From Arenibacter amylolyticus (GTDB lineage Bacteria > Bacteroidota > Bacteroidia > Flavobacteriales > Flavobacteriaceae), in NCBI RefSeq assembly GCF_002150785.1, contig NZ_MTAZ01000047.1, forward strand, positions 1 to 43,769: a stretch of 43,769 nucleotides of DNA. Reading direction: 5' to 3'. Each line of letters begins with the position of its first letter. Positions within the stretch are counted from its first letter, which is position 1. Shown piece by piece: positions 26,628 to 41,874 of the stretch. Made by a program: the position numbers and the translations under genes. Below the pieces are notes generated by a model. It was not told the DNA's origin and did not search any database. It worked only from the letters and a program-made list of their open reading frames with translations.

Positions 26628-27797
26628 TTATAAACTTTGCCCTTTGGCCTCAATATTTTCGAAACTCTTCCAACATTGGAACATAGCTCTTGGAACGTGG
26701 AAACAGCCTTTCCACTTACCACCTTTTAAAGTTAATAACGGCTTTCCTTCCCTGTTAAGATACCCAAACCATTCGCCATTCTCTGGATCTGAAAAATGGC
26801 TCCACGCATAGTCGTGTACTTTTTGGTACCACTCCCCTATATTCTTATTCCCCGTATGTTCAAAAGATTTGGACAAAGCTACTAGGGTTTCTAAATGCAC
26901 CCACCATAATTTCTGGTCCCATTCTAACTGCTGTGGGGGTTTCCCCTTGGCATCCAAGAAATAGAATATTCCCCCATGCTCTTCATCCCAGCTATACTCC
27001 AGAATATTTAGGATAACCTGGGTAGCCTTTTCTATTAGGTCTTTATCATTTTTTCTTACCCCTATATCAATCATAAACCACATGGCCTCAATCCCGTGTC
27101 CTGGATTTAACAAACGGCCATTAAAGCTGTCGCATAGTTTTCCTTCTGGAGTAACAAATTCGTAAATAATCCCAGAATCTTTCTGTAAAAACACCTCCAT
27201 TACTTCGCTAACACTAAAGTCGATGGTTTTTTCTATTTCTTCAGCGTCTAGTACATCTTCTAACTCCAATACTAAATTTGAGAGGATCATGGGAAGCGAA
27301 AACCCCTTTAATGGTCTTGCATCCGTGTTTTTCTCATAAACACCTTTAGAATTGTCCTTTTTCTTTAAAATATTGTAATAGGTCTGTTTAGCCAACTCCC
27401 TTATGGATTCGTCGCCGGTAGCCTTTGCGTACTGACTAAAAGCCATTGCTGCAAAACAGTCCGAGAAAATATTATAAGGTTGTACCAAGGGTTTCCCCTC
27501 TTTAGTAAGGGAAAAGTAGAAATTCCCATCCTTATCCATGGCGTGTTCACGAAGGAAATCGATACCCGATTTTGCTATTTCAAGCCATTTTGGATTTTTC
27601 TCCACCTGATTGTACAGCATGGAAAACGTCCAAGCCTGTCGCCCCTGTAGCCACACAAATTTATCGGTATCAAACACCTCTCCAGTTTGATCTAGACAGG
27701 TAAAGTACCCTCCATTTTCCGTATCTAAGGAATGATTTTCCCAAAAAGGAATGACATCGTTCAGCAGGGTATTTCTATAAAGCTCAGAATTTTTCAT
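26628..27797 (-). CDS. N-acylglucosamine 2-epimerase (AGE family)
   Basis: A 389-residue (alpha/alpha)6-barrel epimerase expected to convert ManNAc to GlcNAc, the step after NanA in the Bacteroidota sialic-acid route. Conserved histidines are in [10 protein letters not shown] (H234), WWVHLETL (H301) and [10 protein letters not shown] (H367); H234 and H367 match the catalytic pair of the family by context. It is cytoplasmic, without signal peptide. The gene has its own promoter with the proposed operator 7 bp before the ATG, and is divergent from the GntR regulator. A cellobiose epimerase would look similar, but FHVPRA and the locus support the ManNAc enzyme. Confidence 0.9.
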
Positions 27798-27804
27798 AAT
27801 AATC

Positions 27805-27819
27805 TTATGTTAGACATAA
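27805..27819 (-). promoter_or_regulatory. Proposed operator 1, epimerase promoter
   Basis: TTATGT-TAG-ACATAA, a perfect 6+6 palindrome with a 3-nt centre. It contains GT-N3-AC, the FadR-type GntR half-site pattern. It starts 2 nt downstream of the -7 box. A decayed version, TTATATTAGACAGTA (12 of 15 identical), lies at 27840-27854. Confidence 0.8.
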
Positions 27820-27821
27820 TA

Positions 27822-27829
27822 CAAATTTA
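27822..27829 (-). promoter_or_regulatory. -7 box of the epimerase gene
   Basis: TAAATTTG on the minus strand, an exact TAnnTTTG match. No good -33 element lies 19-20 nt upstream, which would fit a promoter that is weak or needs help. Confidence 0.65.
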
Positions 27830-27968
27830 AAAATATTTCTTATATTAGACAGTAGTTTCCTTTAATAGTTAAGAGCAGAATTATTTTTTTATTTATGATA
27901 CAATACTATTTTTACAAGTTGTGCAATTTACCTCTTTGTTAATTGCAGAATAAACCTACCAAAAAATT

Positions 27969-28688
27969 ATGGATAAATCGTTGAAATTAGAGCCGTTAGA
28001 GACCTTATCACTTGCAGATAAGGTGGAGGCGCGCTTATTGCAGTTTATAAAAGAGAATAAGTTAAAGGCGGGCGATTCCATTCCAAAGGAAATGGATTTT
28101 GCAGAATCCCTAGGGGTGAGTCGCACTGTAGTAAGGGAAGCTATTTCCCGATTACGCACCTTGGGCATTATTGAATCTAAAAAGCATCGCGGGATGATCT
28201 TGACCAATCCGGATATTATGCATAATCTGGAGCGTATGTTAGATCCCACCCTATTAGCAACAGGCACCTTAAAAAACCTGTTTGAATTACGGATGATAAT
28301 GGAAATGGGGATGGCCGACTTCCTTTTTGAGTATAAAACCCAAAGCGATCTTGAAGAATTGGAAGAAATTGTTCAGTTAGAAGAAGAGGCCGCTTACAAC
28401 CAGAGTGTATTTTCTCTGGACAAGGAAATTGCATTTCATGGAAAACTTTATGAAATGTCTAAAAACACTACGCTTCAAAAATTTCAGGATCTCCTCTTAC
28501 CTGTATTTGAATTTGTACACCTAAACGATACCAATTTAAAGGACTATAAATATTCTAGCGGAGAATTTGTAAATCATAGAATGTTATTAGACAATCTTAA
28601 AGTGGGCACCCCGGAAACTTTTAGGGTAGCCATGCGCAGACATTTAGAACCCCATTTTGATAGAGTATTTAACAAAGAAAAAAAATAG
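27969..28688 (+). CDS. GntR-family regulator, FadR/FCD subfamily, NanR-like
   Basis: A 239-residue regulator. The N-terminal winged helix (about 14-78) shows IPKEMDFAESLGVSRTVVREAISRLRTLGII, typical GntR (quoted in part: SLGVSRTVVREAI). The C-terminal FCD domain (about 100-230) has the metal- and ligand-binding pattern with a conserved acid plus His in EIAFHGKLYEM, a later FVNHRMLLDN and MRRHLEPHFDRV. This subfamily binds sugar acids and similar ligands. It lies between the epimerase gene and the convergent sialidase operon, and the three palindromes in the locus fit its recognition pattern. It is probably a repressor released by a sialic-acid intermediate (inference). Its stop codon lies inside the terminator stem. 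Confidence 0.9.
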   Translation: MDKSLKLEPLETLSLADKVEARLLQFIKENKLKAGDSIPKEMDFAESLGVSRTVVREAISRLRTLGIIESKKHRGMILTNPDIMHNLERMLDPTLLATGTLKNLFELRMIMEMGMADFLFEYKTQSDLEELEEIVQLEEEAAYNQSVFSLDKEIAFHGKLYEMSKNTTLQKFQDLLLPVFEFVHLNDTNLKDYKYSSGEFVNHRMLLDNLKVGTPETFRVAMRRHLEPHFDRVFNKEKK

Positions 28689-28710
28689 CGGGCATTGCCC
28701 GCTATTTTTT
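28676..28710. terminator. Bidirectional terminator between the regulator and the sialidase operon
   Basis: AAAATAGCGGGC, loop ATT, GCCCGCTATTTT: a perfect 12-bp stem with A- and T-runs on both sides. It serves the GntR gene (plus) and the convergent sialidase gene (minus). The regulator's TAG stop at 28686-28688 is part of the stem. Confidence 0.93.
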
Positions 28711-28761
28711 TTCCAATTGGTTTAGCTCAATTTCATCTCTATGAGCTATCGGTCTAAAAAA

Positions 28762-29898
28762 TTACTTTCTCTTTCTTCTAGAAGGCTTCTTGTACTTATC
28801 TTTTCCATCGGTAGCCCATTTTAAAGAAAAGCTTACAAATGGATTTTTAGAGTAGCCGTCTTGCTCAAAGAACAATCCTATATCCCCATTTTCCAATACG
28901 GTCATAGAAGAATACGCAGAACTACCGGTGTAAATAGTTTTTCCTTCCGTCCAAGTCTCTCCTTCGTCATAACTTACACGTACGGTCATATTCATTCTCC
29001 CTTTTTCCATTTTAGCATTGGAAAAAAGAAGTCTGTTTTTCTTGTAACCATCCTCTATAGCGGTATACCTAATGATACTGGCATTACAACCTGGATCTAT
29101 TAACTGTGGCTCTTCTGTAGTTGTCCATGTTTTCCCTTGATCCGTAGAACGGTGCACATAACGCATCCCCGCATTATTCACTCGCGCATTAATCATCCAA
29201 GTACCATCTGCCAATTCTATTACCTTAGATTCATCTGCAGGCTGAATTGGAGTATCTATCAAATACCAAGATTTACCATGGTCGTCACTTGCAAATAAGT
29301 GTAGTCCGCTGTTAAGGTTCACCATAGTATGCAATAATTTCCCATCTCTGGTCTGGATTCCACGTCCGGAAGTGATAAATTTAAAATCATTATGCCATTC
29401 TTCCTTGGCAATCTGACTGGTAATATCCTCGGGCTTCGTCCAAGTTTTTCCATTATCAGCACTTTTCACAACATGGAAGTAGTATACATCTCTTTCCTTG
29501 TCCAAATCCATATAGTTGTAAAACATAAATATTTCATTGGTTTTTGCATCCACAATCATAGAAGGATCCGAAGCAGACTGTCCATAAGGGAAGTCTACCA
29601 CCGTTTCTATATCACCCCAAGTTTTTCCATTGTCGCTACTTCTTCTTATCACAATATTGATATCCTTACTCCATTTAAGGTCGCCACATCCAGGAACTCT
29701 CTCGTCAATAGCAGCTATTAAATCACCATTGGGCGCTGTAATGATAGCAGGAATCCTAAAACAGGCTACTCCATCTACTTCCTCTGCATTAAATAGGTCT
29801 TTGTACACCTTTACCCCATCGGCAATTTGATGGTTTTCCGTTTGTCCTGTAAGGACCATGCTGCTACATAACAACAGCCCGATAAATAACTTTCTCAT
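28762..29898 (-). CDS. Exo-alpha-sialidase (GH33), secreted
   Basis: A 378-residue sialidase with a signal peptide (about 1-20). The arginine-triad FRIP motif is in CFRIPAI (about 46-52). Five Asp boxes of the SxDxGxTW form are present: SSDNGKTW, SADNGKTW, SDDHGKSW, STDQGKTW, SYDEGETW. A catalytic Tyr candidate lies in GSSAYSSM. It would release terminal sialic acid from glycans in the periplasm or outside. The C-terminus ends in a basic tail KYKKPSRRKRK. It is the last gene of the operon, 123 bp after the creatininase-like gene; a weak -7-like TAAAATTG at 29925-29932 could give extra transcription. No lipobox, unlike the second sialidase. Confidence 0.9.
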   Translation of the reverse strand: MRKLFIGLLLCSSMVLTGQTENHQIADGVKVYKDLFNAEEVDGVACFRIPAIITAPNGDLIAAIDERVPGCGDLKWSKDINIVIRRSSDNGKTWGDIETVVDFPYGQSASDPSMIVDAKTNEIFMFYNYMDLDKERDVYYFHVVKSADNGKTWTKPEDITSQIAKEEWHNDFKFITSGRGIQTRDGKLLHTMVNLNSGLHLFASDDHGKSWYLIDTPIQPADESKVIELADGTWMINARVNNAGMRYVHRSTDQGKTWTTTEEPQLIDPGCNASIIRYTAIEDGYKKNRLLFSNAKMEKGRMNMTVRVSYDEGETWTEGKTIYTGSSAYSSMTVLENGDIGLFFEQDGYSKNPFVSFSLKWATDGKDKYKKPSRRKRK

Positions 29899-30021
29899 TT
29901 TCTGTTTATTAATTTATAGTTGTTCAATTTTACTCATGCTTCATTTTGGAAGAAAGCCCAAGCTTTAATTACCTGAACCATTAGCTCCTAGGGAATTCCT
30001 TAGGGATCCTCCTCCATTTAC

Positions 30022-30795
30022 TTACTCGTACATATCCTCAAGATCTGCTTTGGAGAGGGCTTCCATAAACGCTCCAATATTCTTTGCAGAAACATCAAAG
30101 AATTTCTTTCCTTTTTCAGCAGTGGAGAATTGAGGGTTTCCAACACCTGTATCTTCAGTCACTTGCGTCCATTGCCTTTGGGAGCTTACCCATCCTTCCT
30201 TTAATCCTTTTATTTTAAAAGTTTTTCCTTTCCCAGATCCCGCTTGGTCCAAAGACAAAACCCATTCTGGGGTTAGGTGCATAACCACGGAGGTTTCCAA
30301 TTCTCCGGCATGATCTCCGGGTTCCTCAAAATATGGTTGGGGATCTGTGTTGTTCCACCAATTTAACGCGCAAACAAATACCTTGGGAAATTCCAAACTC
30401 AACTCACGTATAAATTGTTTAAAGTTATTTCCACCATGCCCATTCACTATCACCAACTTCCGTATGTCATGAGCATCCAATACCTGAACCACGTCCTTTA
30501 AGACGGCATATTGGGTACTAGGACTCATATTCATACATAGTTTTACGTCCATTTGGCCTGTATTTACGCCAAAGGGGATAGTAGGTAGCACCACTACTTT
30601 TGCTCCGTTTTCCCAAGCTTGCCTCGCCGCCGCAACTGCTACATTTTCGGCCAAAATATTATCCGTCGCATAAGGAAGGTGATAATTATGTGCTTCCGTA
30701 GCTCCCCACGGAAGAACGGCCACCTCGTAATCCATTTCCTTTACGGATTTCCAATTGTTTTCTGCTAATACATAGGGTCTTGGCTTGCTTTTCAT
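30022..30795 (-). CDS. Creatininase-family amidohydrolase of unknown substrate
   Basis: A 257-residue metal hydrolase. Metal ligands of the creatininase fold are visible: Glu34, His36 and Asp45 in WGATEAHNYHLPYATD, His120 in VNGHGGNN, and an acid in GDHAGELETS (about 160-169). Known members open cyclic or linear amides: creatininase, formamidopyrimidine deformylase ArfB and the peptidase MftE. There is no signal peptide, so it works in the cytoplasm, although most of its operon partners are exported. It sits between two sialidases, 45 bp after the lipoprotein sialidase and 123 bp before the other. No sialic-acid role is known to me. It could act on a lactam, lactone or N-acyl derivative of sialic acid, or be a passenger. 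Confidence 0.88.
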   Translation of the reverse strand: MKSKPRPYVLAENNWKSVKEMDYEVAVLPWGATEAHNYHLPYATDNILAENVAVAAARQAWENGAKVVVLPTIPFGVNTGQMDVKLCMNMSPSTQYAVLKDVVQVLDAHDIRKLVIVNGHGGNNFKQFIRELSLEFPKVFVCALNWWNNTDPQPYFEEPGDHAGELETSVVMHLTPEWVLSLDQAGSGKGKTFKIKGLKEGWVSSQRQWTQVTEDTGVGNPQFSTAEKGKKFFDVSAKNIGAFMEALSKADLEDMYE

Positions 30796-30840
30796 TGGTA
30801 TGGATTTTTAACTATTTAATTTCCTAGACAACCTATCATG

Positions 30841-32418
30841 CTAGAACAATTCGTTCAGATTTACTTTTTCAAAAAACAACTCCTTGTTCCCTTCGTATAA
30901 AATACCAATATGATTTTCATCGATCACCGTCATACACGAATACCCGTAGCAGTCGTCCTCGTGAAGCTCCAATTGATTTTCAGTTGGCCAGGTAACTCCT
31001 TGGTCAAAACTGGTCTTGATGGTCATATTGGTTCTTCGCTTTTCATTATTTGGGTTGAAAAAGAAAAGGATTCTTCCCTTCTCTGCATGATCAAAACTGA
31101 TTAAACTAGCCATGCAAACAGGTTCTATTAGCGCTTTTCTTGAAGAAACATGTTCTTCCCAGGTTTTTCCTAAGTCCTTGGTGATGGCCACCGCCCTTGC
31201 TCCACCTCGATTGTCGCGCATATTGAGCATTAGACTTCCATCATCTAACTGTACCACCTGTGCCTCGGTAGTATTGGGTCTTGCACCTGTACCTATTTTC
31301 CAGGTAGTACCTTGGTCCTTACTATAGATTATTGTAGAATGAGGCATTCTATCCTTATCCTTAAATTGGGCAGGGAAAACCAAGGTACCATCCTTCAGGC
31401 TAATACCCTTTCCGGGCCCTTGTAGTAATAATTGCCACTCTGGCTTTTTAACCTGAGAAGTAATATTTATTGGATCGGACCATGTTAGGCCGTCGTCTTC
31501 GCTCTTAACTAATATAAACTGACTTGTTTCTTCGGGGGTCATACCTGGATTGGAAGCATGCCAATTACGTTTTCCAGGATGTCCATGTGCCCATACCGCA
31601 GCAACCCAAATGGTCCCTGTATTGCGATCTACTAGGATGGCGGGATCGCCAATTCCATTTTCCTCCTCAGGTTTACCACCGTATTCACCCATATCCATAA
31701 TTACCTTCATGGGTTCCCAAGTAGTTCCTCCATCCGTACTGCGACTCATCCCTACATCTACATCGGCCTGAAGGTCTACAGGCCCGTTATAGCGATTGTC
31801 ATATACGGCAATTAAAGTACCCTTATTAGTAGTTACCAAACCGGGAATACGATAGGTATCCACATTGTCTTGATTATGCTGCCTTAAAGCTATCCCTACT
31901 CTTTGCGAAGTAGTAGACTTCTCTAAGGTTGGCTTAAGTACCTGCCCATTAGACAAGGTAATGGATACACTTTTGGCACTTATTTTATTGGATAAATCTA
32001 CCGTATCCCGTAATGCCATGGACAACCAAAAATAATTATCTCCAGCCTGTAATGGTTGATGACCTTTAATCCGTATTTGAGATTTTATTTGATTACTTCC
32101 TCCAAACTTGGTACCTGTTTCAAAACGAGGTTCCTTAAAGGAAGCATATACTTCCATCGCAGTAATATCGCTCAGGTCCGTAGTACCTTCCAAGTTAAAG
32201 TCCATAGCGGTTATTGCCAGGTCCGAACCTTGCTCGGGAATAGACAATTTAACTTCCACCACCTTATTCTTTTGCTTGAAAGTGAGCACTGGAAGTACGG
32301 GTTGACCAGTTTCGTAGGTAAACCCACTTATCGGCTCCTTATTGGAGGTGTTGCCACAAGACCCTAATACCAAAGCCATTATGGCAATAATTGCATAATA
32401 TTTATTCTTTCTCATCAT
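30841..32418 (-). CDS. Exo-alpha-sialidase (GH33) lipoprotein with N-terminal beta domain
   Basis: A 525-residue lipoprotein sialidase. The signal ends in the lipobox LGSC with Cys21, so it is anchored in the outer membrane. Residues about 35-170 form a beta-rich N-terminal domain like that of Bacteroidota sialidases, with a probable carbohydrate-binding or packing role. The catalytic propeller begins with YRIPGL (FRIP variant) near 188 and has Asp boxes STDGGTTW, SEDDGLTW, SKDQGTTW, TKDLGKTW and SFDQGVTW. A catalytic Tyr region is CYGYSCM near the end. It is divergent in sequence from the 378-residue sialidase, so the two are not a recent duplication. It starts 51 bp after the SGNH hydrolase gene. 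Confidence 0.92.
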   Translation of the reverse strand: MMRKNKYYAIIAIMALVLGSCGNTSNKEPISGFTYETGQPVLPVLTFKQKNKVVEVKLSIPEQGSDLAITAMDFNLEGTTDLSDITAMEVYASFKEPRFETGTKFGGSNQIKSQIRIKGHQPLQAGDNYFWLSMALRDTVDLSNKISAKSVSITLSNGQVLKPTLEKSTTSQRVGIALRQHNQDNVDTYRIPGLVTTNKGTLIAVYDNRYNGPVDLQADVDVGMSRSTDGGTTWEPMKVIMDMGEYGGKPEEENGIGDPAILVDRNTGTIWVAAVWAHGHPGKRNWHASNPGMTPEETSQFILVKSEDDGLTWSDPINITSQVKKPEWQLLLQGPGKGISLKDGTLVFPAQFKDKDRMPHSTIIYSKDQGTTWKIGTGARPNTTEAQVVQLDDGSLMLNMRDNRGGARAVAITKDLGKTWEEHVSSRKALIEPVCMASLISFDHAEKGRILFFFNPNNEKRRTNMTIKTSFDQGVTWPTENQLELHEDDCYGYSCMTVIDENHIGILYEGNKELFFEKVNLNELF

Positions 32419-32469
32419 CTCTTTAAGGTAGTTATTTATAGGTTCTTAGCCTATTAACCGATTAATTTT

Positions 32470-33123
32470 TTAGTTGACATAAGGTCTTAGGACCCGTTTC
32501 CATTTTTTATACCCCTGCTTGCTCAAATGCAAGCCATCATAGGTAAACTTTGGTTTTAACGCTCCTTTAGCGTTCCTAAATCTTTTATGAAGGTCTATAA
32601 AAGAAACATTATTCCTTTTAGCGAGCTCCTCTAGGGACCGGTTTACCGACATAATTAGTTGCTGATTACTTTTATGCCCGGAAAATTTGTCGCCTACCTT
32701 CGGATTCACTGGCAGGATACTCTGTAAGAATATCTCCGTATTTTCTGAATCTTTTTGTATCTCATGCAAAATGGATGCCACATGATCTACCACATAGGAT
32801 TTGGATTTTCCCCTAGCCAGATCATTGGTTCCAATCAACAGAAATATCTTTTTGGGTTGTGAAGAAGTCACTTCGGAAAGCCGATTGAGGATACCCGCTG
32901 TTACATCCCCACTTATTCCCCTATTCACCGCGTTTACATTGGGAAACAAAGCTTTCCAATCCCCTCCTTCGGTAATACTATTTCCCAAAAAAATTATTTC
33001 ATTCTCCGTATCTGGGGTCGATTCAAACAAGGCCTTTCGCTGATAATAATGATCGGAAAAGGTTTGTGCATTTACACTCGTAACCAAGATTCCTACCGAC
33101 AATAGAAATAAAAACTGCTTCAT
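32470..33123 (-). CDS. Secreted SGNH/GDSL hydrolase
   Basis: A 217-residue exported esterase, signal peptide cut after VNA (about 19). SGNH blocks: FLGNSITEGG with nucleophile Ser49, RGISGD (block II Gly), LLIGTNDLA (block III Asn) and YDGLHLSKQGY with the catalytic Asp/His near the C-terminus. This is the small GDSL type close to PAF-acetylhydrolase-like and sialate O-acetylesterase-like proteins. In this operon deacetylation of sialic acid or of neighbouring sugars is plausible. It starts 12 bp after the hexosaminidase gene. Confidence 0.88.
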   Translation of the reverse strand: MKQFLFLLSVGILVTSVNAQTFSDHYYQRKALFESTPDTENEIIFLGNSITEGGDWKALFPNVNAVNRGISGDVTAGILNRLSEVTSSQPKKIFLLIGTNDLARGKSKSYVVDHVASILHEIQKDSENTEIFLQSILPVNPKVGDKFSGHKSNQQLIMSVNRSLEELAKRNNVSFIDLHKRFRNAKGALKPKFTYDGLHLSKQGYKKWKRVLRPYVN

Positions 33124-33135
33124 AACTATTCTAAA

Positions 33136-35187
33136 TTAAAATGAAGGGTCGTATTTAAGGTCTTGTACCTCTCTAACGTTGTTCCCATCCAAGGATACGG
33201 GTATAAACGTATACATCCATTTCCAAGAACGACCTCCATGGGGTATCTTCAAAAGTACCGTATTCCAACCTTTTTTCAATTTTACCTTGGCGGGTTCCCT
33301 ATAAAAATAATCCTCATCTATAAAAGGAATCTCATCGGTTGCTACTGCCAACTCTGGCTGTTGCCATACTGGGGGTGCAACTTCCTCATTGTTCACCCAA
33401 ATCTTTGGTTCTGTAAAATGCCATTGACCTTGACTGGGCGCAGGTCCTCCCCTTCTACCTCCAGACCTGGACCAACCGTAAAACCCTATCCAAAAAGTCT
33501 GTTCCCTCGCCTCTGAAGAATAAATTTTGGTATGCGCATAATAGGTTCCAGATTTGGCTTCCGTTATTGCTGGGAATCCAAAGTAATGTTTAAGATGTAT
33601 GGTTGCCCCTACCGGAGTATCATCCCATTTATAGGTGGTCCCATCTACCGTATAACTAGATTGCAACTCCTTCTCTACAGGAAATGAGGCTGTAAAGTCG
33701 CCCTTATGATCAAAGGGACCTATAATCTTCCATAAAGCTTCCGTCTGGGCCACATATGGAAACTCTTTATCTTTAAAGAAATGGTCTCTATGTACCAATA
33801 CTTTTTGTTCAAAATCCATAAACCTTTTCAGCTCTTCGGATCCTTTCGGTGGAAGTTTGGCCCAATACTCTAAATAGTTTTTCTCCCTACCCTTCCAAAT
33901 GGCATCGGAATAAAAAACAATAGAAGGATAAATGGGGTTCTGTTTTAATATATCGCGTTCATTAGCCACATTGTTGTCTGGCCATGCACACAATATTCCT
34001 CCCAAGGCCAGGGAATCTCCAGCAGGCTGTCTACAGGGTTGTTGGAAAAACAAACGAGCCATTCCCGCAAAGGGATCCAAGTGATTAATGTAATTGGCCC
34101 TAGAGTCTATAAATCGGTGTCCCTTACGTACCTCGTGTTGTGCCCAAAGTTGATTAATAGAGGTACTATCCCCTTCAATTTCAATACCTTCTTTCCATAC
34201 TATTAGCTCACGGCCCTTACCTTTTATGTGGTTCATTAAGGTAAGAATCATCTCGTCTTCCACATATTCTGGCTCATTCCTAACTTCATCGGTCCCTATG
34301 TGGATATAGGGCATTTCTTCGGCATCGGCAAGTGACATCAACTCGTCAAAAAGATCTATTAGAATGGGGAGCACCCTTTCCTCTTTCATCGTCTTTATTC
34401 CAAAAGCTTTTCTAAAGGCCCTGGTGTGCCCAGGTATATCAAATTCTGGAATCACCGTTATTTGACGTTCCTTACTGTAGGCAAGTATTTCTTTAAAATC
34501 TTCTTGAGTATAATATTTGCCCACATGTCTACTAAAGGATGAATCCGCTTTTAATTCTGGGTATAATTTACTTTCTAAACGCCATCCTGGATCATCTGTT
34601 AAATGCCAATGAAATATATTGTACTTGTATTTAGCCAGAACATCTATTTGTTCTTTTAGCTGTGCCACACTTTGGTAGTTTCTACCCGTGTCGTGCATAA
34701 ACCCCCTAATTTTAAAAGCGGGCCAATCCTTAATGTCCAATTGTGGCAAGCTCCAACTCCTTCCCTTTTCCCTTATCACCTGGGCCAAGGACTGCAGACC
34801 ATAATAAGCTCCCTTTTCCGTAGGGGCAGTAATGGTTATTTTTTTATCGATTTTTAAGGTATAGGCTTCTTGGTTGGTGAGATTGGAATTTTGTAAAATT
34901 TCTACTTCCAGTCCTTTTTTATCGGTCCACAGACCTTCGGTACGCAATACCTTTTCAGGAGCTAACTCCGCTGTTTTAAAGTCGTTGTTTACAAGACGTA
35001 ATCCAGAAAAAGTTACCTCTTTCTTCCCATAAGTTAGTTCCTGTGGCGTGGGAATAAGCGGATATTTATCTGCAAGCTGCGTCGGCTTTCCTTGAGCACA
35101 GGCACTTAAAGCAAATAATAGCACCACACCCATATTTAACCCAGCGTTGCAGGAGTACCACCTTATTTTATCAACTATTTTCTTCAT
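33136..35187 (-). CDS. GH20 beta-N-acetylhexosaminidase lipoprotein
   Basis: A 683-residue exported hydrolase; the signal ends in LSAC (Cys30), so it is likely a lipoprotein. An N-terminal GH20b-like domain (about 40-155) precedes the (beta/alpha)8 catalytic domain, which has FMHDTGRNY, FHWHLTDDPGWR and the catalytic pair D300-E301 in HIGTDE. The usual GH20 form is HIGGDE; the Thr is a minor variant. The C-terminal 180 residues are an extra beta-rich domain, perhaps carbohydrate binding. The enzyme would remove GlcNAc or GalNAc exposed after galactose/sialic acid trimming. It lies 42 bp after the O-acetylesterase gene. Confidence 0.9.
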   Translation of the reverse strand: MKKIVDKIRWYSCNAGLNMGVVLLFALSACAQGKPTQLADKYPLIPTPQELTYGKKEVTFSGLRLVNNDFKTAELAPEKVLRTEGLWTDKKGLEVEILQNSNLTNQEAYTLKIDKKITITAPTEKGAYYGLQSLAQVIREKGRSWSLPQLDIKDWPAFKIRGFMHDTGRNYQSVAQLKEQIDVLAKYKYNIFHWHLTDDPGWRLESKLYPELKADSSFSRHVGKYYTQEDFKEILAYSKERQITVIPEFDIPGHTRAFRKAFGIKTMKEERVLPILIDLFDELMSLADAEEMPYIHIGTDEVRNEPEYVEDEMILTLMNHIKGKGRELIVWKEGIEIEGDSTSINQLWAQHEVRKGHRFIDSRANYINHLDPFAGMARLFFQQPCRQPAGDSLALGGILCAWPDNNVANERDILKQNPIYPSIVFYSDAIWKGREKNYLEYWAKLPPKGSEELKRFMDFEQKVLVHRDHFFKDKEFPYVAQTEALWKIIGPFDHKGDFTASFPVEKELQSSYTVDGTTYKWDDTPVGATIHLKHYFGFPAITEAKSGTYYAHTKIYSSEAREQTFWIGFYGWSRSGGRRGGPAPSQGQWHFTEPKIWVNNEEVAPPVWQQPELAVATDEIPFIDEDYFYREPAKVKLKKGWNTVLLKIPHGGRSWKWMYTFIPVSLDGNNVREVQDLKYDPSF

Positions 35188-35229
35188 ATTTCACGGTAAA
35201 ACGTTGGTATCTAAATATTTATTAAATTT

Positions 35230-37320
35230 TCAATCTATCAAATTGGAAAACGTGGACGCTGGAATCCCATGGGCATTGGTCAAATTCCCATCGGAATAGG
35301 AACTATAACCGTACCTCACATATCTAGGTTTTTTCACCTGTTTGCTCCAAACCCGTAACACCCCGCTATCTATTTGGGTCTTTGCCTTTACAAATACCTT
35401 ATCATCACCGGCGATTTCAATATCCGTTACCGATTTTCCATTGGTAGTCTGCAATCCTTCCCCGTGGAGAAAGTGTACTTCCAATTCCTTATCCTGTACA
35501 TTTACAAAATCTAACAAGGGTCCGGAAAAAGGAATATCCAATCCGTAATTTTTTGCCAGGGCAATCTTAGACAAACGTTTGCCTACCACCCATTTTTTTT
35601 TGGGGTGCACATTTGTGGGGTGCCCCACATCCATGCTCACGGCCATTCCGGTATTGGGAATGGACAGAAGTTTTCGTTGCGAATCCCTAAACTTCCCCCA
35701 ATTAGGCCTGTTGATGCTACTTAATTGAACATAATTAAATGCCATAGCGGGATTATTCCAATGCTTACGCCAATCTGCCACCAACATTTTAAACAGCTTG
35801 GTATGTAATATTTCCCGTTCTGCATTAGACTCTCCCTGGTACCAGATAACTCCTTTAATGGGGAAATCTTTTATAGGATAAATCCCCGCGTCGAACAACA
35901 TGGTAGGATCAAAGGGATGCCTAGCTTTAATGCGATATTGGCTCATAGCAACCATGTTTTTCTCCTTGCGTTGATTTACCCACGGCTGCACCAAGGGATG
36001 ACGATGGGTATCGTTTAGCAAACTAATAGTTTCATGGGTGGTCTCCATGGCCTCCCTACTAATCCAACTTTGAGTGGTAGATCCTCCTACCGCATTGGAA
36101 ATGATGCCTACTGGCACCTTTAATTCTTTTTGAAGATTATAGGCAAATGCGTAGGCAACTGCAGAAAAATTTTCCATGCTAGACCCTAAAGCCGTGTTCC
36201 AGCCCGAAGGTTTAAAAAAGCCTTCCGCATTGCAGTATGCCAACTCCTCCTTGGTATAAGCGCGATTGGAAGTGTGCGCTTTTGGATCCATAGAAAAAAG
36301 AAAGATATTGGAGCTTATGGAATCCTTTAGGATGGAGGCTCCCTGCTTTTCCTCGGCCAGTTTAAAAGCCATATTGGATTGCCCGGATGCCAACCAAACC
36401 TCTCCTACATAGGTTTCGGAAATATGGATTTCCCCCGATTGCTTGGAAGAAATCGTCAATTGGTACGGACCGCCCGCTTTCTGTGCAGGATAGGTAACTT
36501 GCCATTGACCATGGCGAGAAACTTTGGTGCGCTTGATTTTACCATTAAACTGTATGGTAATCTCGTCCGTGGCATTTGCCACCCCCTTGATGACCAAGGG
36601 TATATTTCTTTGAAAAACCATTTGCTCCCCGTAAAGCATGGGAAGTGCTAATCCTCCATAGTCACCACTAATAAATTGAGCTATTTTCTTGGCTATTATG
36701 GTAGCCCCTTCTTTGGCAGGGTGAAGATCATCTGCATAGTATTCCGGGAATCGGTACAAGGGCTCTTGAAGATTAATCACAGGAACTCCAGCTTGTTGGC
36801 CTATGAGATCTATCTTAGACTGAATCTCTAAATAATTCTCCCGCATCCCTTCTTCAAACCAATGGTGGCCAGAAAAGGAGGGAGACATTTGACAGATGAT
36901 AACTTCTGGGGAAGAAGGCAATTCTCTATATTCCTGAATCATCGCTAGATAATCGGAAACAAAGCTATCCTTATGATCGGGCCAATTATTATTCCCTTGA
37001 TCGTTAAGCCCTAAATGAATTACGACCAAATTTGGCAAGAAAGCCTTAGAAGCATCAAATTGAGGGGTATCCCAATAAGGTTTATGCCCCTTTTTTAGCA
37101 TAGTAGCTCCGGGATGTCCAAAGTTCGCTACCTTGTAGACATCCCCGAGCATTTGCTGCAATTGAACTGGATAAGCATTACGCTCCCTATTCTCAATTGC
37201 AGTTCCATAGGTAACGCTGTTCCCTACGCAGGCCACCTTTATTTGCTGTGCATGCATGGAAAAAGTCATTAAAAAAATAAGCAAATAAAAATTTCTCAAC
37301 TCAATTCCATTAAACACCAA
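35230..37320 (-). CDS. nanS: Two-domain sialate O-acetylesterase
   Basis: A 696-residue exported esterase with a signal peptide (cut after HA, about 24) and two SGNH-type catalytic domains. Domain 1 (about 25-220) has VGNSVTYG with Ser35, HLGLND and DDLHP with His200. Domain 2 (about 305-650) is the SASA type, with WLASGQSNM (Ser315), YQGESNA and DVGHPTNVHP (catalytic Asp/His). The layout and size match, from memory, the two-domain NanS of Tannerella forsythia, which removes acetyl groups from O-acetylated sialic acids so that sialidases can act. It starts 50 bp after nanA in the same operon. Both catalytic sites look intact. Confidence 0.88.
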   Translation of the reverse strand: MVFNGIELRNFYLLIFLMTFSMHAQQIKVACVGNSVTYGTAIENRERNAYPVQLQQMLGDVYKVANFGHPGATMLKKGHKPYWDTPQFDASKAFLPNLVVIHLGLNDQGNNNWPDHKDSFVSDYLAMIQEYRELPSSPEVIICQMSPSFSGHHWFEEGMRENYLEIQSKIDLIGQQAGVPVINLQEPLYRFPEYYADDLHPAKEGATIIAKKIAQFISGDYGGLALPMLYGEQMVFQRNIPLVIKGVANATDEITIQFNGKIKRTKVSRHGQWQVTYPAQKAGGPYQLTISSKQSGEIHISETYVGEVWLASGQSNMAFKLAEEKQGASILKDSISSNIFLFSMDPKAHTSNRAYTKEELAYCNAEGFFKPSGWNTALGSSMENFSAVAYAFAYNLQKELKVPVGIISNAVGGSTTQSWISREAMETTHETISLLNDTHRHPLVQPWVNQRKEKNMVAMSQYRIKARHPFDPTMLFDAGIYPIKDFPIKGVIWYQGESNAEREILHTKLFKMLVADWRKHWNNPAMAFNYVQLSSINRPNWGKFRDSQRKLLSIPNTGMAVSMDVGHPTNVHPKKKWVVGKRLSKIALAKNYGLDIPFSGPLLDFVNVQDKELEVHFLHGEGLQTTNGKSVTDIEIAGDDKVFVKAKTQIDSGVLRVWSKQVKKPRYVRYGYSSYSDGNLTNAHGIPASTFSNLID

Positions 37321-37370
37321 ACAACCTTATAGTTAAGCCCTTATTAAAGAACAGTGTATTGTAGAACTAT

Positions 37371-38273
37371 TTATACCTTACCTAGATATGGAGTAATTCC
37401 CAAAGCATCCAATTCTGACTTCGCCTCTTCAATTTGAGCCTCCGTTAGCGTGGTATGCGGGAACCTACTAGGACCTAAATCCAATCCTAATGCCTTCATA
37501 AAGGATTTTGCAGCACCGTTAAAACCACCTTTTGCATTTAAGACATCTACAAACTTCATGGATTTCTGCTGAAGATCTGCAGCCAATGTATGATTATTAT
37601 TATTAAACGCTTCCTCTATAGCTAAGTACAATGGAGCCAAGTGGTTATAGGTACTCCCTACCCAGCCATCGGCACCAAAGGGAAGACTAGCAAGGAAAAT
37701 CTCATCAAATCCAAATAAAATATTAGCAGACCCTCCATTAAACTCCTTAGAGTATTTATAATCTATAAGATTGTTGTTGGTAAACTTAATTCCGGCTAGA
37801 TTGGGAATCTGCGGTGTTGCCAACGCTAAGAATTCTGCCATATTAAAATTGGCTCCAGTCAATACAGGGATATGGTAATAATAAAAAGGAATATTAGGTG
37901 CACAGGCGGCAATTTCCTTACAATATTCTACTAACTTATTAATATCGGATAATCTAAAGTAATAAGGAGCCAATGCAGCAATCCCGTCTACCTTATCAGC
38001 AGCATAGGCAGCCAACTCCTTAGCTTCCTGCAAGCTAGTATGCCCTACATGATCTATTACAAATAGGTCGCTCGACTTATTTTGACCCCAAGCCTTCGTA
38101 ATTTCCTTCCTTTCGGCTACGGACAAAGAGGTAAAGTCTCCAGTAGACCCATTTATAAAAACCCCTTTCACCCCATTTCCTTTTAAGAAATCCGCATATT
38201 GCGGTACTATCTCTACATTAAGCGAAGAATCCTGGTGCATGGGTGCATAGGTCGCTGCTATAAGTCCTTTCAT
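37371..38273 (-). CDS. nanA: N-acetylneuraminate lyase
   Basis: A 300-residue (beta/alpha)8 aldolase of the DHDPS/NAL class, which splits Neu5Ac to ManNAc and pyruvate in the cytoplasm. The Schiff-base lysine is K163 in LAGIKFTNNN, the catalytic tyrosine Y133 in FYYYHIP, and the carboxylate-binding loop is GSTGDF (42-47; most homologues have GSTGE). It is the first gene of a seven-gene minus-strand operon ending with the secreted sialidase at 28762. The promoter with proposed operator 2 lies just upstream. Confidence 0.92.
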   Translation of the reverse strand: MKGLIAATYAPMHQDSSLNVEIVPQYADFLKGNGVKGVFINGSTGDFTSLSVAERKEITKAWGQNKSSDLFVIDHVGHTSLQEAKELAAYAADKVDGIAALAPYYFRLSDINKLVEYCKEIAACAPNIPFYYYHIPVLTGANFNMAEFLALATPQIPNLAGIKFTNNNLIDYKYSKEFNGGSANILFGFDEIFLASLPFGADGWVGSTYNHLAPLYLAIEEAFNNNNHTLAADLQQKSMKFVDVLNAKGGFNGAAKSFMKALGLDLGPSRFPHTTLTEAQIEEAKSELDALGITPYLGKV

Positions 38274-38286
38274 TTTTCAAATGCTG

Positions 38287-38301
38287 TTATGTTATACATA
38301 A
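38287..38301 (-). promoter_or_regulatory. Proposed operator 2, nanA operon promoter
   Basis: TTATGT-TAT-ACATAA, the same 6+6 palindrome as operators 1 and 3. It lies 2 nt downstream of the -7 box and 13 bp before the nanA start codon, so it should cover the transcription start. Confidence 0.82.
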
Positions 38302-38303
38302 TA

Positions 38304-38336
38304 CAAATCTAGGTAAACAAATTGAGGTGCACAAAA
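38304..38336 (-). promoter_or_regulatory. Promoter of the nanA operon
   Basis: On the minus strand TTTTG (38332-38336), a 20-nt spacer and TAGATTTG (38304-38311), an exact TAnnTTTG match. Confidence 0.78.
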
Positions 38337-38551
38337 GGAATTTTAGAAGAATTATTAAATAACACCTCAAACAAAACCCAAGCAATCTACACCTAAGCCA
38401 TATTTTACTAGTGCTAATATAACTTTTCAATTTATTGATCCGAATAAGTTTTTAACAATATTTCATTCATTTATATGTAGGAATATCACATTGTCAGGGG
38501 TAAACATCATAAAATCACAATTTATAATTCACCAAAAAAAACTGCAAATAT

Positions 38552-38582
38552 TTTGTTAAGAAACCATTATTTAATATCATTG
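38552..38582 (+). promoter_or_regulatory. Promoter of susC/susD
   Basis: TTTG at 38552-38555, a 19-nt spacer and TATCATTG at 38575-38582, one base from TAnnTTTG. Confidence 0.68.
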
Positions 38583-38584
38583 CA

Positions 38585-38599
38585 TTATGTAATACATAA
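38585..38599 (+). promoter_or_regulatory. Proposed operator 3, susC promoter
   Basis: TTATGT-AAT-ACATAA, 2 nt downstream of the -7 box and 11 bp before the susC start codon. The positional match to operators 1 and 2 is exact. The region 38312-38551 between the two divergent promoters is AT-rich with no gene. Confidence 0.82.
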
Positions 38600-38610
38600 G
38601 AACTAACAAA

Positions 38611-41600
38611 ATGATACACAAAAACAAACTCTTAAAGCATGTGCTAGCACTAACGGCCTTTCTATTTATGGGAGGTTTGTACGCACAACAGAAAACAGTC
38701 AGCGGAACTATTTCCGACGACACAGGACAACCCCTTCCTGGGGCCAACGTATTAGTACAAGGTACTACCACGGGGACACAATCGGATTTTGATGGAAACT
38801 ATACCATTCAAGCAAGTGACGATGACATTTTGGTATTTAGCTACATTGGTTTTACCACCAAAAACATTCCAGTTGGAAACCAAACTACTATTAATGTAAC
38901 CTTATCAGAGGATGCTGCCTTGTTAGACGAGGTGGTTGTAACCGGGTACGGTTCTCAGACCAGGGCAACACTTACCACTTCTGTATCTAAATTGGATACA
39001 AAAATTTTGGAAACTTCTACAAGATCCAATGCCGCAACAGCCCTACAGGGTACGATTGCAGGTTTACGTGTAACCAACACTACCGGACAACCAGGTTCTA
39101 CCCCACAAATCGTATTGCGTGGTGGTACTAATTTTGATGGCACCGGTTCCCCTCTGATCTTAATAGACGGGATCCCTGGATCTTTTTACGCACTTAACTC
39201 GGACGACATTGAGTCTATAGAAGTACTGAAAGATGCAGCTGCTACCGCTATTTATGGTGCAAGATCCGCCAACGGGGTTATCTTGGTAACCACCAAAACA
39301 GGAAAAGCTGGAAAATCCTCTATCAACTACAAGTACAAATACAGTATGAACGAGGAGCGCAACGATCAAAAGTATATTGGTGCAGAAGACTTCATTAATT
39401 ACAACAGACAGTCCATTGCTTGGTATAGGGAAGCTATTAACAACCCTGGATCTTTTGGTGCCTTTTTAGATGGAGCCAATTCTATGGGAACCGGTGGAAA
39501 CACTACCAACTCTCCATTTACTACCCAGTTGTTAACTGCGGATAACCAGTACCTATTAAATCAGCCTGGTTGGAATGCGATTCCCGATGTTCTAAACCCT
39601 AATCAGCAAATTTTATTCTTTGACAACAAGAGTGTAGGAGATCGCATTTATCAGAACAGCGCCTCCAAGGATCACTACCTATCTTTTGATGGTGGTAACG
39701 AAAAAGGAACTTACTACTTAGGTTTAGGCTTATTGGATAACGATGGATTGATTTTAGGATCTGGTTTTAAAAGATACTCTGGAAAGTTTTCAGGATCTTA
39801 TAGGATTACAGACAATTTTAAGATTAATTCCAACGTGCTTTATTCGCACTCTAACCTAAACCGTAGCCCACTAGGTGGTGATGACACGGTGTTTAGAAGA
39901 TTCCAAGGTCAGGCACCTACTTCTAGAACCTATGACAACAATCCTGATGGAACTTGGTCCGATATTTATGCCGTGGGACAAAACCAAGGCTTTGGTAACC
40001 CATTATATTATCAAGATAAGTTTATCAGAAAAAATCTAGAGCAGCGTTTGTCTGCATCCGTAGGATTTGACTGGAACATCCTAGATAATTTAATCTTTGC
40101 TGTGAATGGTAGTCACTTTGCCATTAACAACCACAACGAGAACTTTAATAAAGCCTTTAGGGTAGGAAGCACTACTGGTCCCATTAGAGCCGAAAGAGCT
40201 GCCTCTGTTAGCTTAGGAAGAACTCTAAGAAACCAGTTGACGGGTACCCTTAACTACACCAAAAGAGTTGGTGATCACAATTTTAACGCTTTGGTGGGAG
40301 CTGAGTATTATAAAGACAATTTCTTTAGCACTTCTGCAGGAACCAGAAACTCGCCTACAGATTTAATCCCGACCTTGAATGCAGGTGCAGAAGCAGACGG
40401 AATACCGTCCAGCTTTGAAACCGAGTATGTACTAACATCGACCTTTGGACGTTTATTGTACGATTACGACAACAGATACTTGATCAGTGGTACCTTTAGA
40501 CGTGATGGATCCTCTAGATTGGGTAACGAGAAATTTGGCTTCTTCCCAGGAGTATCCGTAGGATGGAACTTACACAACGAGAGCTTCTTTATGGATTCTA
40601 ACATTAGCAATACCATTTCTAGGGTAAAACCAAGATTGAGTTACGGTGTTAATGGTAACCAAGATGTTTTAAGTAATTACGGAGTATTTGGTGCTTACGG
40701 AAGTCAAGGTATCTACGACGGTCAAACCGGATATGCCAACTCCTTACTACCAACTTTGGATTTGAAATGGGAGAAATCTACCACCTTTAATGCTGGTTTG
40801 GATATCTCATTTTTCAACAACAACCTTACTTTCATTGCCGATGTGTATTCTAGGGATATCAAGGATAAATTGGCAGACCTAACCTTACCCTTCTACACTG
40901 GGTTCAGCAGTATTTTAACCAATAACGGAACCATTAGAAACAAAGGTTTTGAACTTCAAGTAAACGGGAACGTTATTAATAGCGAGGACCTAACTTGGAA
41001 TGTGGGAGCTACTTTTACTTCCAACAAAAACTACGTGGTTAAACTTCCTGAGAATGCCAACGATCTAAACAGACAGGCAGGACAGTTAATTTGGAATGCC
41101 AAAACTGGTCAAGAAGAGTGGATCGGTGGATACCAGGAAGGTAAACGAGCAGGTAACGATCTAGTAATTGCCTATGAGCAAGAGCGTATCTATAGGGATC
41201 AAGCCGATGCTGATGCAGACGCTTCTATTGAGGATACTTTCTTACCTGGCGATAAGTTTAAGCACTTTGCTGGAGATGTTAAGTGGAAAGACCAAAATGG
41301 TGATGGTGTTATCAACAGCCTAGACAGAAAGGTGATTGGTAGAACTACTCCAGATTTCATTGGTGGACTTACTACTAGCTTAAGATATAAGAACTTTAAT
41401 CTATTTGTGAAGACCGATTTTGCAACAGGACATTTGGTATGGAACCATATTAGAAATAAAGGATATGGACAAACCCAAGGTAACTTAAACCAGCCTATAG
41501 AGGTATTGGATTCTTGGACACCTAATAATATGGATACAGAGTGGCCACGCTTCGTTTTTGTAAACGGTACCAAGAACGTATGGAGAGGAAACGAAGGAGC

Positions 41601-41874
41601 ATCCTTTGGGGATAGCTCTAGCTTAATGAACGCCGCTAACGACCAGTTCTGGGAAAAAGGAGATTACTTAGCCTTGCGTGAAGTAACCCTAAGCTATGAC
41701 GTACCTGCAGCATACTTCAATGACGCTATTAAGCGATTGAGCCTGTTTGTTACTGGTAGCAACTTACACTACTTTAAGAGCTTCTCTGGTGACACACCTG
41801 AAATTGGTGGAGTACAGTACGGTGCCTTCCCGGTTCCTAAAACTGTTACTATTGGATTAAACTTAACATTTTAA
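38611..41874 (+). CDS. SusC-type TonB-dependent outer-membrane transporter (sialoglycan locus)
   Basis: A 1087-residue TonB-dependent receptor. A signal peptide is cut after LYA (about 25). A carboxypeptidase-D-regulatory-like domain (about 30-110, GTISDDTGQPLPGANVLVQG) is followed by the plug (about 115-230, LLDEVVVTGYGSQ) and a 22-strand barrel ending in an aromatic TIGLNLTF. The segment DQNGDGVIN looks like a calcium loop common in SusC proteins. It would import sialic acid or sialylated glycans together with the SusD partner 11 bp downstream. The locus and shared operator suggest a NanO-like role; specificity itself cannot be read from the sequence. Confidence 0.93.
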   Translation: MIHKNKLLKHVLALTAFLFMGGLYAQQKTVSGTISDDTGQPLPGANVLVQGTTTGTQSDFDGNYTIQASDDDILVFSYIGFTTKNIPVGNQTTINVTLSEDAALLDEVVVTGYGSQTRATLTTSVSKLDTKILETSTRSNAATALQGTIAGLRVTNTTGQPGSTPQIVLRGGTNFDGTGSPLILIDGIPGSFYALNSDDIESIEVLKDAAATAIYGARSANGVILVTTKTGKAGKSSINYKYKYSMNEERNDQKYIGAEDFINYNRQSIAWYREAINNPGSFGAFLDGANSMGTGGNTTNSPFTTQLLTADNQYLLNQPGWNAIPDVLNPNQQILFFDNKSVGDRIYQNSASKDHYLSFDGGNEKGTYYLGLGLLDNDGLILGSGFKRYSGKFSGSYRITDNFKINSNVLYSHSNLNRSPLGGDDTVFRRFQGQAPTSRTYDNNPDGTWSDIYAVGQNQGFGNPLYYQDKFIRKNLEQRLSASVGFDWNILDNLIFAVNGSHFAINNHNENFNKAFRVGSTTGPIRAERAASVSLGRTLRNQLTGTLNYTKRVGDHNFNALVGAEYYKDNFFSTSAGTRNSPTDLIPTLNAGAEADGIPSSFETEYVLTSTFGRLLYDYDNRYLISGTFRRDGSSRLGNEKFGFFPGVSVGWNLHNESFFMDSNISNTISRVKPRLSYGVNGNQDVLSNYGVFGAYGSQGIYDGQTGYANSLLPTLDLKWEKSTTFNAGLDISFFNNNLTFIADVYSRDIKDKLADLTLPFYTGFSSILTNNGTIRNKGFELQVNGNVINSEDLTWNVGATFTSNKNYVVKLPENANDLNRQAGQLIWNAKTGQEEWIGGYQEGKRAGNDLVIAYEQERIYRDQADADADASIEDTFLPGDKFKHFAGDVKWKDQNGDGVINSLDRKVIGRTTPDFIGGLTTSLRYKNFNLFVKTDFATGHLVWNHIRNKGYGQTQGNLNQPIEVLDSWTPNNMDTEWPRFVFVNGTKNVWRGNEGASFGDSSSLMNAANDQFWEKGDYLALREVTLSYDVPAAYFNDAIKRLSLFVTGSNLHYFKSFSGDTPEIGGVQYGAFPVPKTVTIGLNLTF

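Follow-up and report, generated by a model that had tools for sequence, protein, structure and literature searches.

The question raised by the stretch of DNA considered here, 43,769 nucleotides from Arenibacter amylolyticus (contig NZ_MTAZ01000047.1; hereafter the window), is how a set of sialic-acid genes lying behind several promoters might be switched on and off together. A first-pass annotation, made from the letters alone, had proposed that one 15-bp palindrome marks three promoters of the locus and is bound by a GntR-family regulator encoded beside them. A pattern scan found three exact copies of this palindrome, TTATGTNNNACATAA, just where that annotation had placed them, and no other in the window. 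They are TTATGTTAGACATAA (operator 1, 27805-27819), 7 bp before the start of the epimerase gene and in the divergent region common to this gene and the regulator gene; TTATGTTATACATAA (operator 2, 38287-38301), 13 bp before the start codon of nanA, the N-acetylneuraminate lyase gene; and TTATGTAATACATAA (operator 3, 38585-38599), 11 bp before that of susC, none being assigned a strand. The palindromes and the GntR regulator very probably form the switch of the sialic-acid pathway. We propose herein, with high confidence, that the form WTATGTNNNACATAW is the operator of the regulator encoded at 27969-28688, which would repress four promoters until sialic acid, or an early product of its breakdown, releases it.

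In the whole genome (3,985,366 bases), the exact palindrome occurs in three places, which are those of the window, and not in many copies at unrelated genes; the same pattern read backwards, which served as a control, occurs in two. A density of three copies per genome corresponds to an expectation of 0.008 in the 10.8 kb that contain them, and the Poisson probability of at least three is about 9e-8. With up to three mismatches, the window contains 36 matches against a shuffle mean of 39.0, which is the chance level, and with one mismatch the genome contains 20 places against 29 for the reversed pattern. Weight is therefore laid only on exact sites, and a half-match at 27840-27854 was discarded as an operator since three-mismatch matches are at the chance level. 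Seventeen further one-mismatch places were retrieved and their neighbors compared with the proteins of the window, with Pfam applied at three (C10, C31 and C58:12242); a recognized pathway gene lay downstream only at C10, the remaining places being incompletely annotated. If the end bases are relaxed to A or T (W-ended sites, WTATGTNNNACATAW), there are seven genome places against two for the control, and three of the W-ended places (C6, C37 and C58) fall inside open reading frames (ORFs) matching ParA-like, DUF983 and glycosyltransferase proteins.

The presumed repressor, a protein of 239 amino acids (27969..28688, plus strand), carries a GntR winged helix-turn-helix (Pfam, 5.6e-16) and an FCD effector domain (1.6e-13), both above the Pfam cut-offs, which bears out the earlier statement that a FadR-type regulator gene lies in the locus. 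No ROK domain is among its Pfam matches. A whole-protein search of the genome at E 0.001 returned only the regulator itself and no second homologue, while the GntR domain alone gave three matches: the regulator, a 492-amino-acid frame and a 251-amino-acid frame below the cut-off. The palindrome itself contains GT-N3-AC, and this 3-nt spacing of GT and AC is typical of operators of the FadR subfamily (PMC4494728), as the first-pass annotation had stated.

A fourth W-ended copy (G000:C10:122137-122151, locus L035) lies on another contig of the same genome. It precedes by 51 bp the ATG of a gene whose 871-amino-acid product, an inner-membrane transporter, joins an N-acetylneuraminate mutarotase of the NanM type to a sodium:solute symporter. 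The first annotated start of this gene, a TTG 3 bp from the site, was dropped for the in-frame ATG at 51 bp, where the protein has, by eye, a signal-like start. An inner-membrane transporter was not found in the locus of the window, and this gene is the candidate. In five loci (L051, L052, L053, L055 and L056), the NanM-symporter gene lies less than about 2 kb from the epimerase gene and is preceded by a W-ended site. The regulon had been pictured as self-contained, with three sites; an unlinked fourth site before a transporter gene means that it is not.

Homologues of the regulator were sought in 18 genomes of the genus, 397 of the family and 395 of the class. All identities given here are to the regulator of the window, and an adjacent site denotes an exact W-ended copy within 350 bp of a regulator. 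Among regulators at least 54% identical, an adjacent site was found for 45 of 47 in longer stretches and for 43 of 44 in 1.5-kb flanks. The larger set comprises the same regulators together with L001, L108 and L125, and the sole exception in the smaller one (L086, the same place as L115) has a site with one mismatch. None of the 14 regulators at most 40% identical has an exact W-ended site in its 1.5-kb flanks. Across 46 loci (920,621 bp; most of about 20 kb and none above 44 kb), there are 119 exact sites, of which 118 are not deep inside an ORF, versus one for the reversed pattern; one locus just below 54% landed in the distant set, where it accounts for two of that set's eight sites. The exact sites stay conserved while the bases around them diverge. 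The gene that follows the site in 121 unique oriented contexts is that of the epimerase (37), susC (34), nanA (21), the NanM-symporter (17), a creatininase-family protein (7) or another (5). At the class level, eight of 15 loci possess an exact site (44-68% identity), two have only a one-mismatch site and five have none.

The same operator also occurs at three loci (L127, L128 and L129) whose regulators are 44-45% identical and whose 20-kb stretches gave no nanA or epimerase match; the content of L127 is GH28, a symporter, MIOX, NAGLU and GH43. It is used as well in a second SusC/D locus, with a 67% identical regulator (L108). The operator is thus tied to the DNA-binding domain of the regulator and not to sialic acid as such. 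One genome (G097) harbors two such regulators (L105 and L108), between which cross-talk is possible.

A contact analysis of FadR regulators independently linked an Asn/Thr position of the recognition helix to the central bases of the operator (PMC4494728), and we assign this position to residue 53 of the regulator. Residue 53 is Thr in all 47 regulators at least 54% identical; at 44-49% it is Thr in one and Asn in three, and below that Asn in six of six. The 121 operator sites at Thr53 regulators have A or T as their centre base in 115 cases, and all 11 at Asn53 regulators have G or C. The arms vary with the wing: of 124 sites at regulators with Lys-Lys at residues 71-72, 123 have ATGT arms (L121 has the one TTGT site), while Arg-Lys (L105) is paired with ATGT in 3/3, Asn-Lys with TTGT in 2/2, and Arg-Thr with TTGT in 3/3. 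Residue 71 alone was considered as the correlate of the arms and ruled out by L105, in favor of residues 71 and 72 together. L127-L129 combine Asn53 with a Lys-Lys wing, and all six of their sites have ATGT arms with a G or C centre; the centre and arm changes are therefore separable. Locus L130, which has two regulators, was left out of these site counts. At the class level, the centre is G or C in 6/6 listed palindromes of Asn loci, and A or T in 5/7 of Thr loci. Distant regulators at five nanA- or NanM-matching loci (L130, L131, L132, L066 and L067) are accompanied by palindromes of the form TTGT-N3-ACAA; the regulators with such palindromes are 33-40% identical, and in L130, L132 and L066 an arm of the palindrome overlaps a TATATTTG box.

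Promoters of Bacteroidetes carry TTTG and TANNTTTG at -33 and -7 (PMC6847099), and a scan for Escherichia coli sigma-70 promoters found 41 versus a shuffle mean of 43.3. Each operator of the window adjoins a putative -7 box. That of the epimerase, TAAATTTG (27822..27829, minus strand), is 2 nt from operator 1; that of nanA, TAGATTTG (38304..38311, minus strand), has a TTTG 20 nt further upstream (38332-38335); and that of susC, TATCATTG (38575..38582, plus strand), is one letter off TAnnTTTG and has a TTTG 19 nt further upstream (38552-38555). Among the contexts, a TAnnTTTG beginning 8-11 nt ahead of the operator is present in 31/37 at the epimerase gene, 17/21 at nanA and 2/34 at susC; TAnnATTG takes its place in two more at nanA and 21 more at susC. 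A box thus adjoins the operator in 31/37, 19/21 and 23/34, respectively, against shuffle means of 0.17 to 0.42, and a TTG near -33 accompanies 4/31, 11/19 and 19/23 of these boxes. At the expected position of the -33 TTTG of the epimerase promoter stands CTAATATAAGAA (minus strand, 27837-27848), which is conserved in several members of the genus and is possibly the site of another factor.

The transporter gene is arranged the other way round. At 10-16 nt after its operator, TAnnTTGY occurs in 11/17 contexts and TAnnTTTG in 2/17 (shuffle means 0.16 and 0.13), with neither in four; the TAnnTTGY boxes lie 12-15 nt downstream of the operator in the 11. A box after the operator is found at susC too (TAnnTTGY in 6/34 contexts, TAnnTTTG in two), and the fourth site of the A. 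amylolyticus genome itself belongs to a promoter with a TAnnTTGY box instead of TAnnTTTG. This sequence is motif SM5 of a start-site map of F. psychrophilum, in which -7 boxes occupy -12 to -5 and SM5 is assigned by the authors, as the likeliest case, to an alternative sigma factor (PMC9723704). The downstream pattern was initially picked after viewing the sequences, and the counts given here use the published SM5 consensus. On these spacings, the stretch covered by the operator would be roughly -2 to +13 for the epimerase, nanA and susC promoters and roughly -39 to -25 for the transporter promoter of this genome. As a tentative suggestion, to which we incline less than to its opposite, one repressor may serve two classes of promoter: one with the operator at the start site and a TAnnTTTG-type box, for the enzymes and most outer-membrane genes, and one with a TAnnTTGY (SM5) box 12-15 nt after the operator, for the transporter and susC in 6/34 contexts. 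On this view, the transporter would be expressed only when the repressor is lost and an alternative-sigma signal is present as well.

Several observations weigh against taking the palindrome as the operator of this regulator. No adjacent exact site accompanies two of the regulators with 54% identity or more. L108 (67% identical) belongs to the second SusC/D locus, and its sole site precedes susC and is 5 kb away from the regulator; L115, on a short contig, has a site with one mismatch. Among the class-level loci, L139 and L143 offer no more than one-mismatch sites, and L140, L141, L145 and L146 (48-50%) and L147 (35%) have none; L126 (49%) has no site although it is beside an epimerase and a sialidase. 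The covariation is broken by Arg71 with ATGT arms at L105 and, at the class level, at L137, by the one TTGT site of L121, and by Thr with G/C centres at the class-level locus L138. The window's own epimerase promoter has no clear -33 TTTG. Genome-wide, the reversed pattern is as frequent as the forward one or more so in some genomes of the genus (G010, 5 vs 5; G014, 5 vs 6 reversed; G017, 4 vs 6 reversed), and the four genus genomes that lack a close regulator nevertheless contain two to four forward sites. Genome-wide counts alone do not discriminate; the case is carried by the position of the sites. The sites are moreover related by descent, which makes the counts of conservation and covariation non-independent. 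Fisher values computed on them accordingly exaggerate significance, and the table among them labelled K71 is in fact divided by residue 76.

By analogy with its family alone, the regulator is taken to repress and to answer to an inducer. Without sialic acid, a regulator dimer would occupy the four promoters of the epimerase gene, the presumed nanA operon, susCD and the unlinked NanM-symporter gene. The bound dimer would obstruct RNA polymerase, sitting immediately downstream of the -7 box in the first three cases and on the -33 region at the transporter gene. Binding of sialic acid, or of an early product of its breakdown, in the FCD domain would then cause the regulator to leave the DNA, and the result would be joint induction of outer-membrane uptake, sialidases, the mutarotase-transporter, the lyase and the epimerase. 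Repression seems the best reading because both placements of the operator would obstruct the polymerase. That the regulator binds these sites but activates, or represses some promoters and activates others, is improbable in our estimation; at the transporter gene, the operator is upstream of a -7-like box in 11/17 contexts, a position open to activators too, but at the majority of the epimerase, nanA and susC promoters it would lie over the start site, and a dimer bound there should obstruct polymerase.

The palindrome might instead belong to another factor, such as a global regulator of the Crp type, whose sites would be expected before sugar genes and whose predicted motif in Bacteroides, wwwTATGTTnTAnAACATAwww, shares the half-site TATGT (PMC3878776). 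TATGT and ACATA are, however, 3 nt apart here and 6 nt apart in the Crp motif, and three exact copies in the genome are few for a global factor. The presence of the site also tracks the GntR gene across genera, and DNA-binding residues of the GntR protein covary with it, so that we consider ownership by another factor very unlikely. Chance, or shared promoter ancestry without function, is hardly credible at all: A/T-rich palindromes arise easily, as the two genome copies of the reversed control illustrate, but the 46 loci hold 119 sites versus one, and the sites are kept while their flanks diverge.

Given repression through this operator, the effector is likely to be sialic acid or an early product of its breakdown. 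Another product, such as N-acetylmannosamine, N-acetylglucosamine or a hexosamine phosphate, could take the place of sialic acid itself, which we regard as possible, though the less likely course. The occurrence of the operator at L127-L129 without nanA or epimerase matches implies that what is sensed has probably diverged among members of the family, and Arg203, His214 and Asn165, which touch N-acetylneuraminate (Neu5Ac) in NanR of E. coli, are not conserved, a point against a sialic-acid effector. The carboxylate-binding Arg128 and His176, His222 and His244 of that protein, by contrast, are kept in 57/57 aligned regulators, with Glu for Asp172; regulators of other loci are among the 57, and these metal ligands and Arg128 therefore do not settle the ligand. 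An AlphaFold model of the regulator (mean pLDDT, a per-residue confidence score, 71.9; four sequences) has its top TM-score, among the 50 matches listed, with 6on4_A, a complex of NanR with sialic acid (0.57/0.61) that comes seventh by E-value; this resemblance may lend weak support to sialic acid as the effector.

The first-pass annotation had called the regulon NanR-like. Its tie between site and regulator is upheld by the comparative evidence, while the likeness to NanR of E. coli is limited. The latter is a GntR/FadR repressor released by Neu5Ac (PMC8012715), and thus of the same subfamily and presumably the same task, with the positions of the metal ligands kept except that Glu replaces Asp172. 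The best NCBIfam match of the regulator is indeed NanR, but at 96.7 bits it misses the cut-off of 260; the two proteins are about 20% identical, and the N-terminal extension is about 17 residues shorter here in the alignment. E. coli NanR recognizes direct repeats of GGTATA, whereas the operator proposed here is a single palindrome. The window has no pair of GGTATA repeats 2-8 nt apart, and its seven single copies of TGGTATAW (shuffle mean 5.4) include none at these promoters. NanR of Bacteroides (BT0433; PMC3878776) serves the same pathway in the same phylum, but it is a ROK-family protein; deletion of nanR in B. fragilis was reported to give constitutive expression (PMC3969230).

Operators of the FadR subfamily share with this one the palindrome, the 3-nt centre and the GT/AC core, and differ in having TKGT/ACMA arms in place of ATGT/ACAT; the FadR set of that study includes no Bacteroidetes regulators (PMC4494728). 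The published boxes are not matched by the three sites of the window, nor by 120 of 121 sites at Thr53 regulators, all of which are ATGT/ACAT. Since that consensus averages many regulators, the mismatch does not exclude the FadR subfamily. The regulator and its operator would be a well-supported addition to the known GntR/FadR kind. A gntR-like gene stands together with an epimerase and a sialidase in the siaC locus of Capnocytophaga canimorsus (PMC2533406), as do a NanM-symporter fusion, SusC/D, lyase and epimerase in the sialic-acid polysaccharide utilization locus of Tenacibaculum maritimum (PMC5561996); the consulted text of these two reports describes no operator or regulon. In the open-access literature searched, we found no GntR sialic-acid operator described for this group of Bacteroidota. 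The operator could serve as a testable, genome-searchable mark of sialic-acid use in the group, and Bacteroidota are indicated to possess at least two unrelated sialic-acid regulators, of the ROK and GntR families. A regulator family whose operators shift alongside a few protein residues may also provide a natural set for measuring DNA recognition by GntR proteins.

The locus was described at the outset as one for sialic acid, and by homology it contains the lyase, epimerase, sialidase and outer-membrane transport that such use would call for, inner-membrane transport being on another contig. N-acyl-D-glucosamine 2-epimerase (AGE; 26628..27797, minus strand) matches NCBIfam NF052547 at 657 bits (cut-off 600). 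The nanA product (37371..38273, minus strand; DHDPS family) scores 160 and 128 bits with the two NCBIfam nanA models, short of their respective cut-offs of 281 and 382, and the 36 solved sequences with which it has matches at 1e-20 or better all bear the name N-acetylneuraminate or acylneuraminate lyase. nanA is followed on the minus strand by family matches to a GDSL and sialic-acid-type acetylesterase (SASA) protein (35230..37320), a GH20 family glycosidase (33136..35187) and a GDSL esterase family protein (32470..33123); by an exo-sialidase-like BNR protein (30841..32418; best solved match at E 2.4e-147, with further top matches named sialidase); and by family matches to a creatininase-family amidohydrolase (30022..30795) and a sialidase-like BNR-repeat protein (28762..29898). 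The gaps from nanA through the second BNR protein are 12 to 123 bp, and these seven genes presumably form one operon, with nanA first and the BNR-repeat gene last. On the plus strand are the genes for a SusC-type TonB-dependent outer-membrane transporter (38611..41874; TIGR04056, 770 bits) and, by family match, a SusD-family protein (41886..43391). nagB is on other contigs of the genome. The creatininase-family amidohydrolase (30022-30795) recurs in these sialic-acid loci, and the operator stands before such genes in seven contexts. Between the convergent ends of the regulator gene and the nanA operon, a stem-loop of 17 pairs with a T-run (28677-28713) is probably a terminator.

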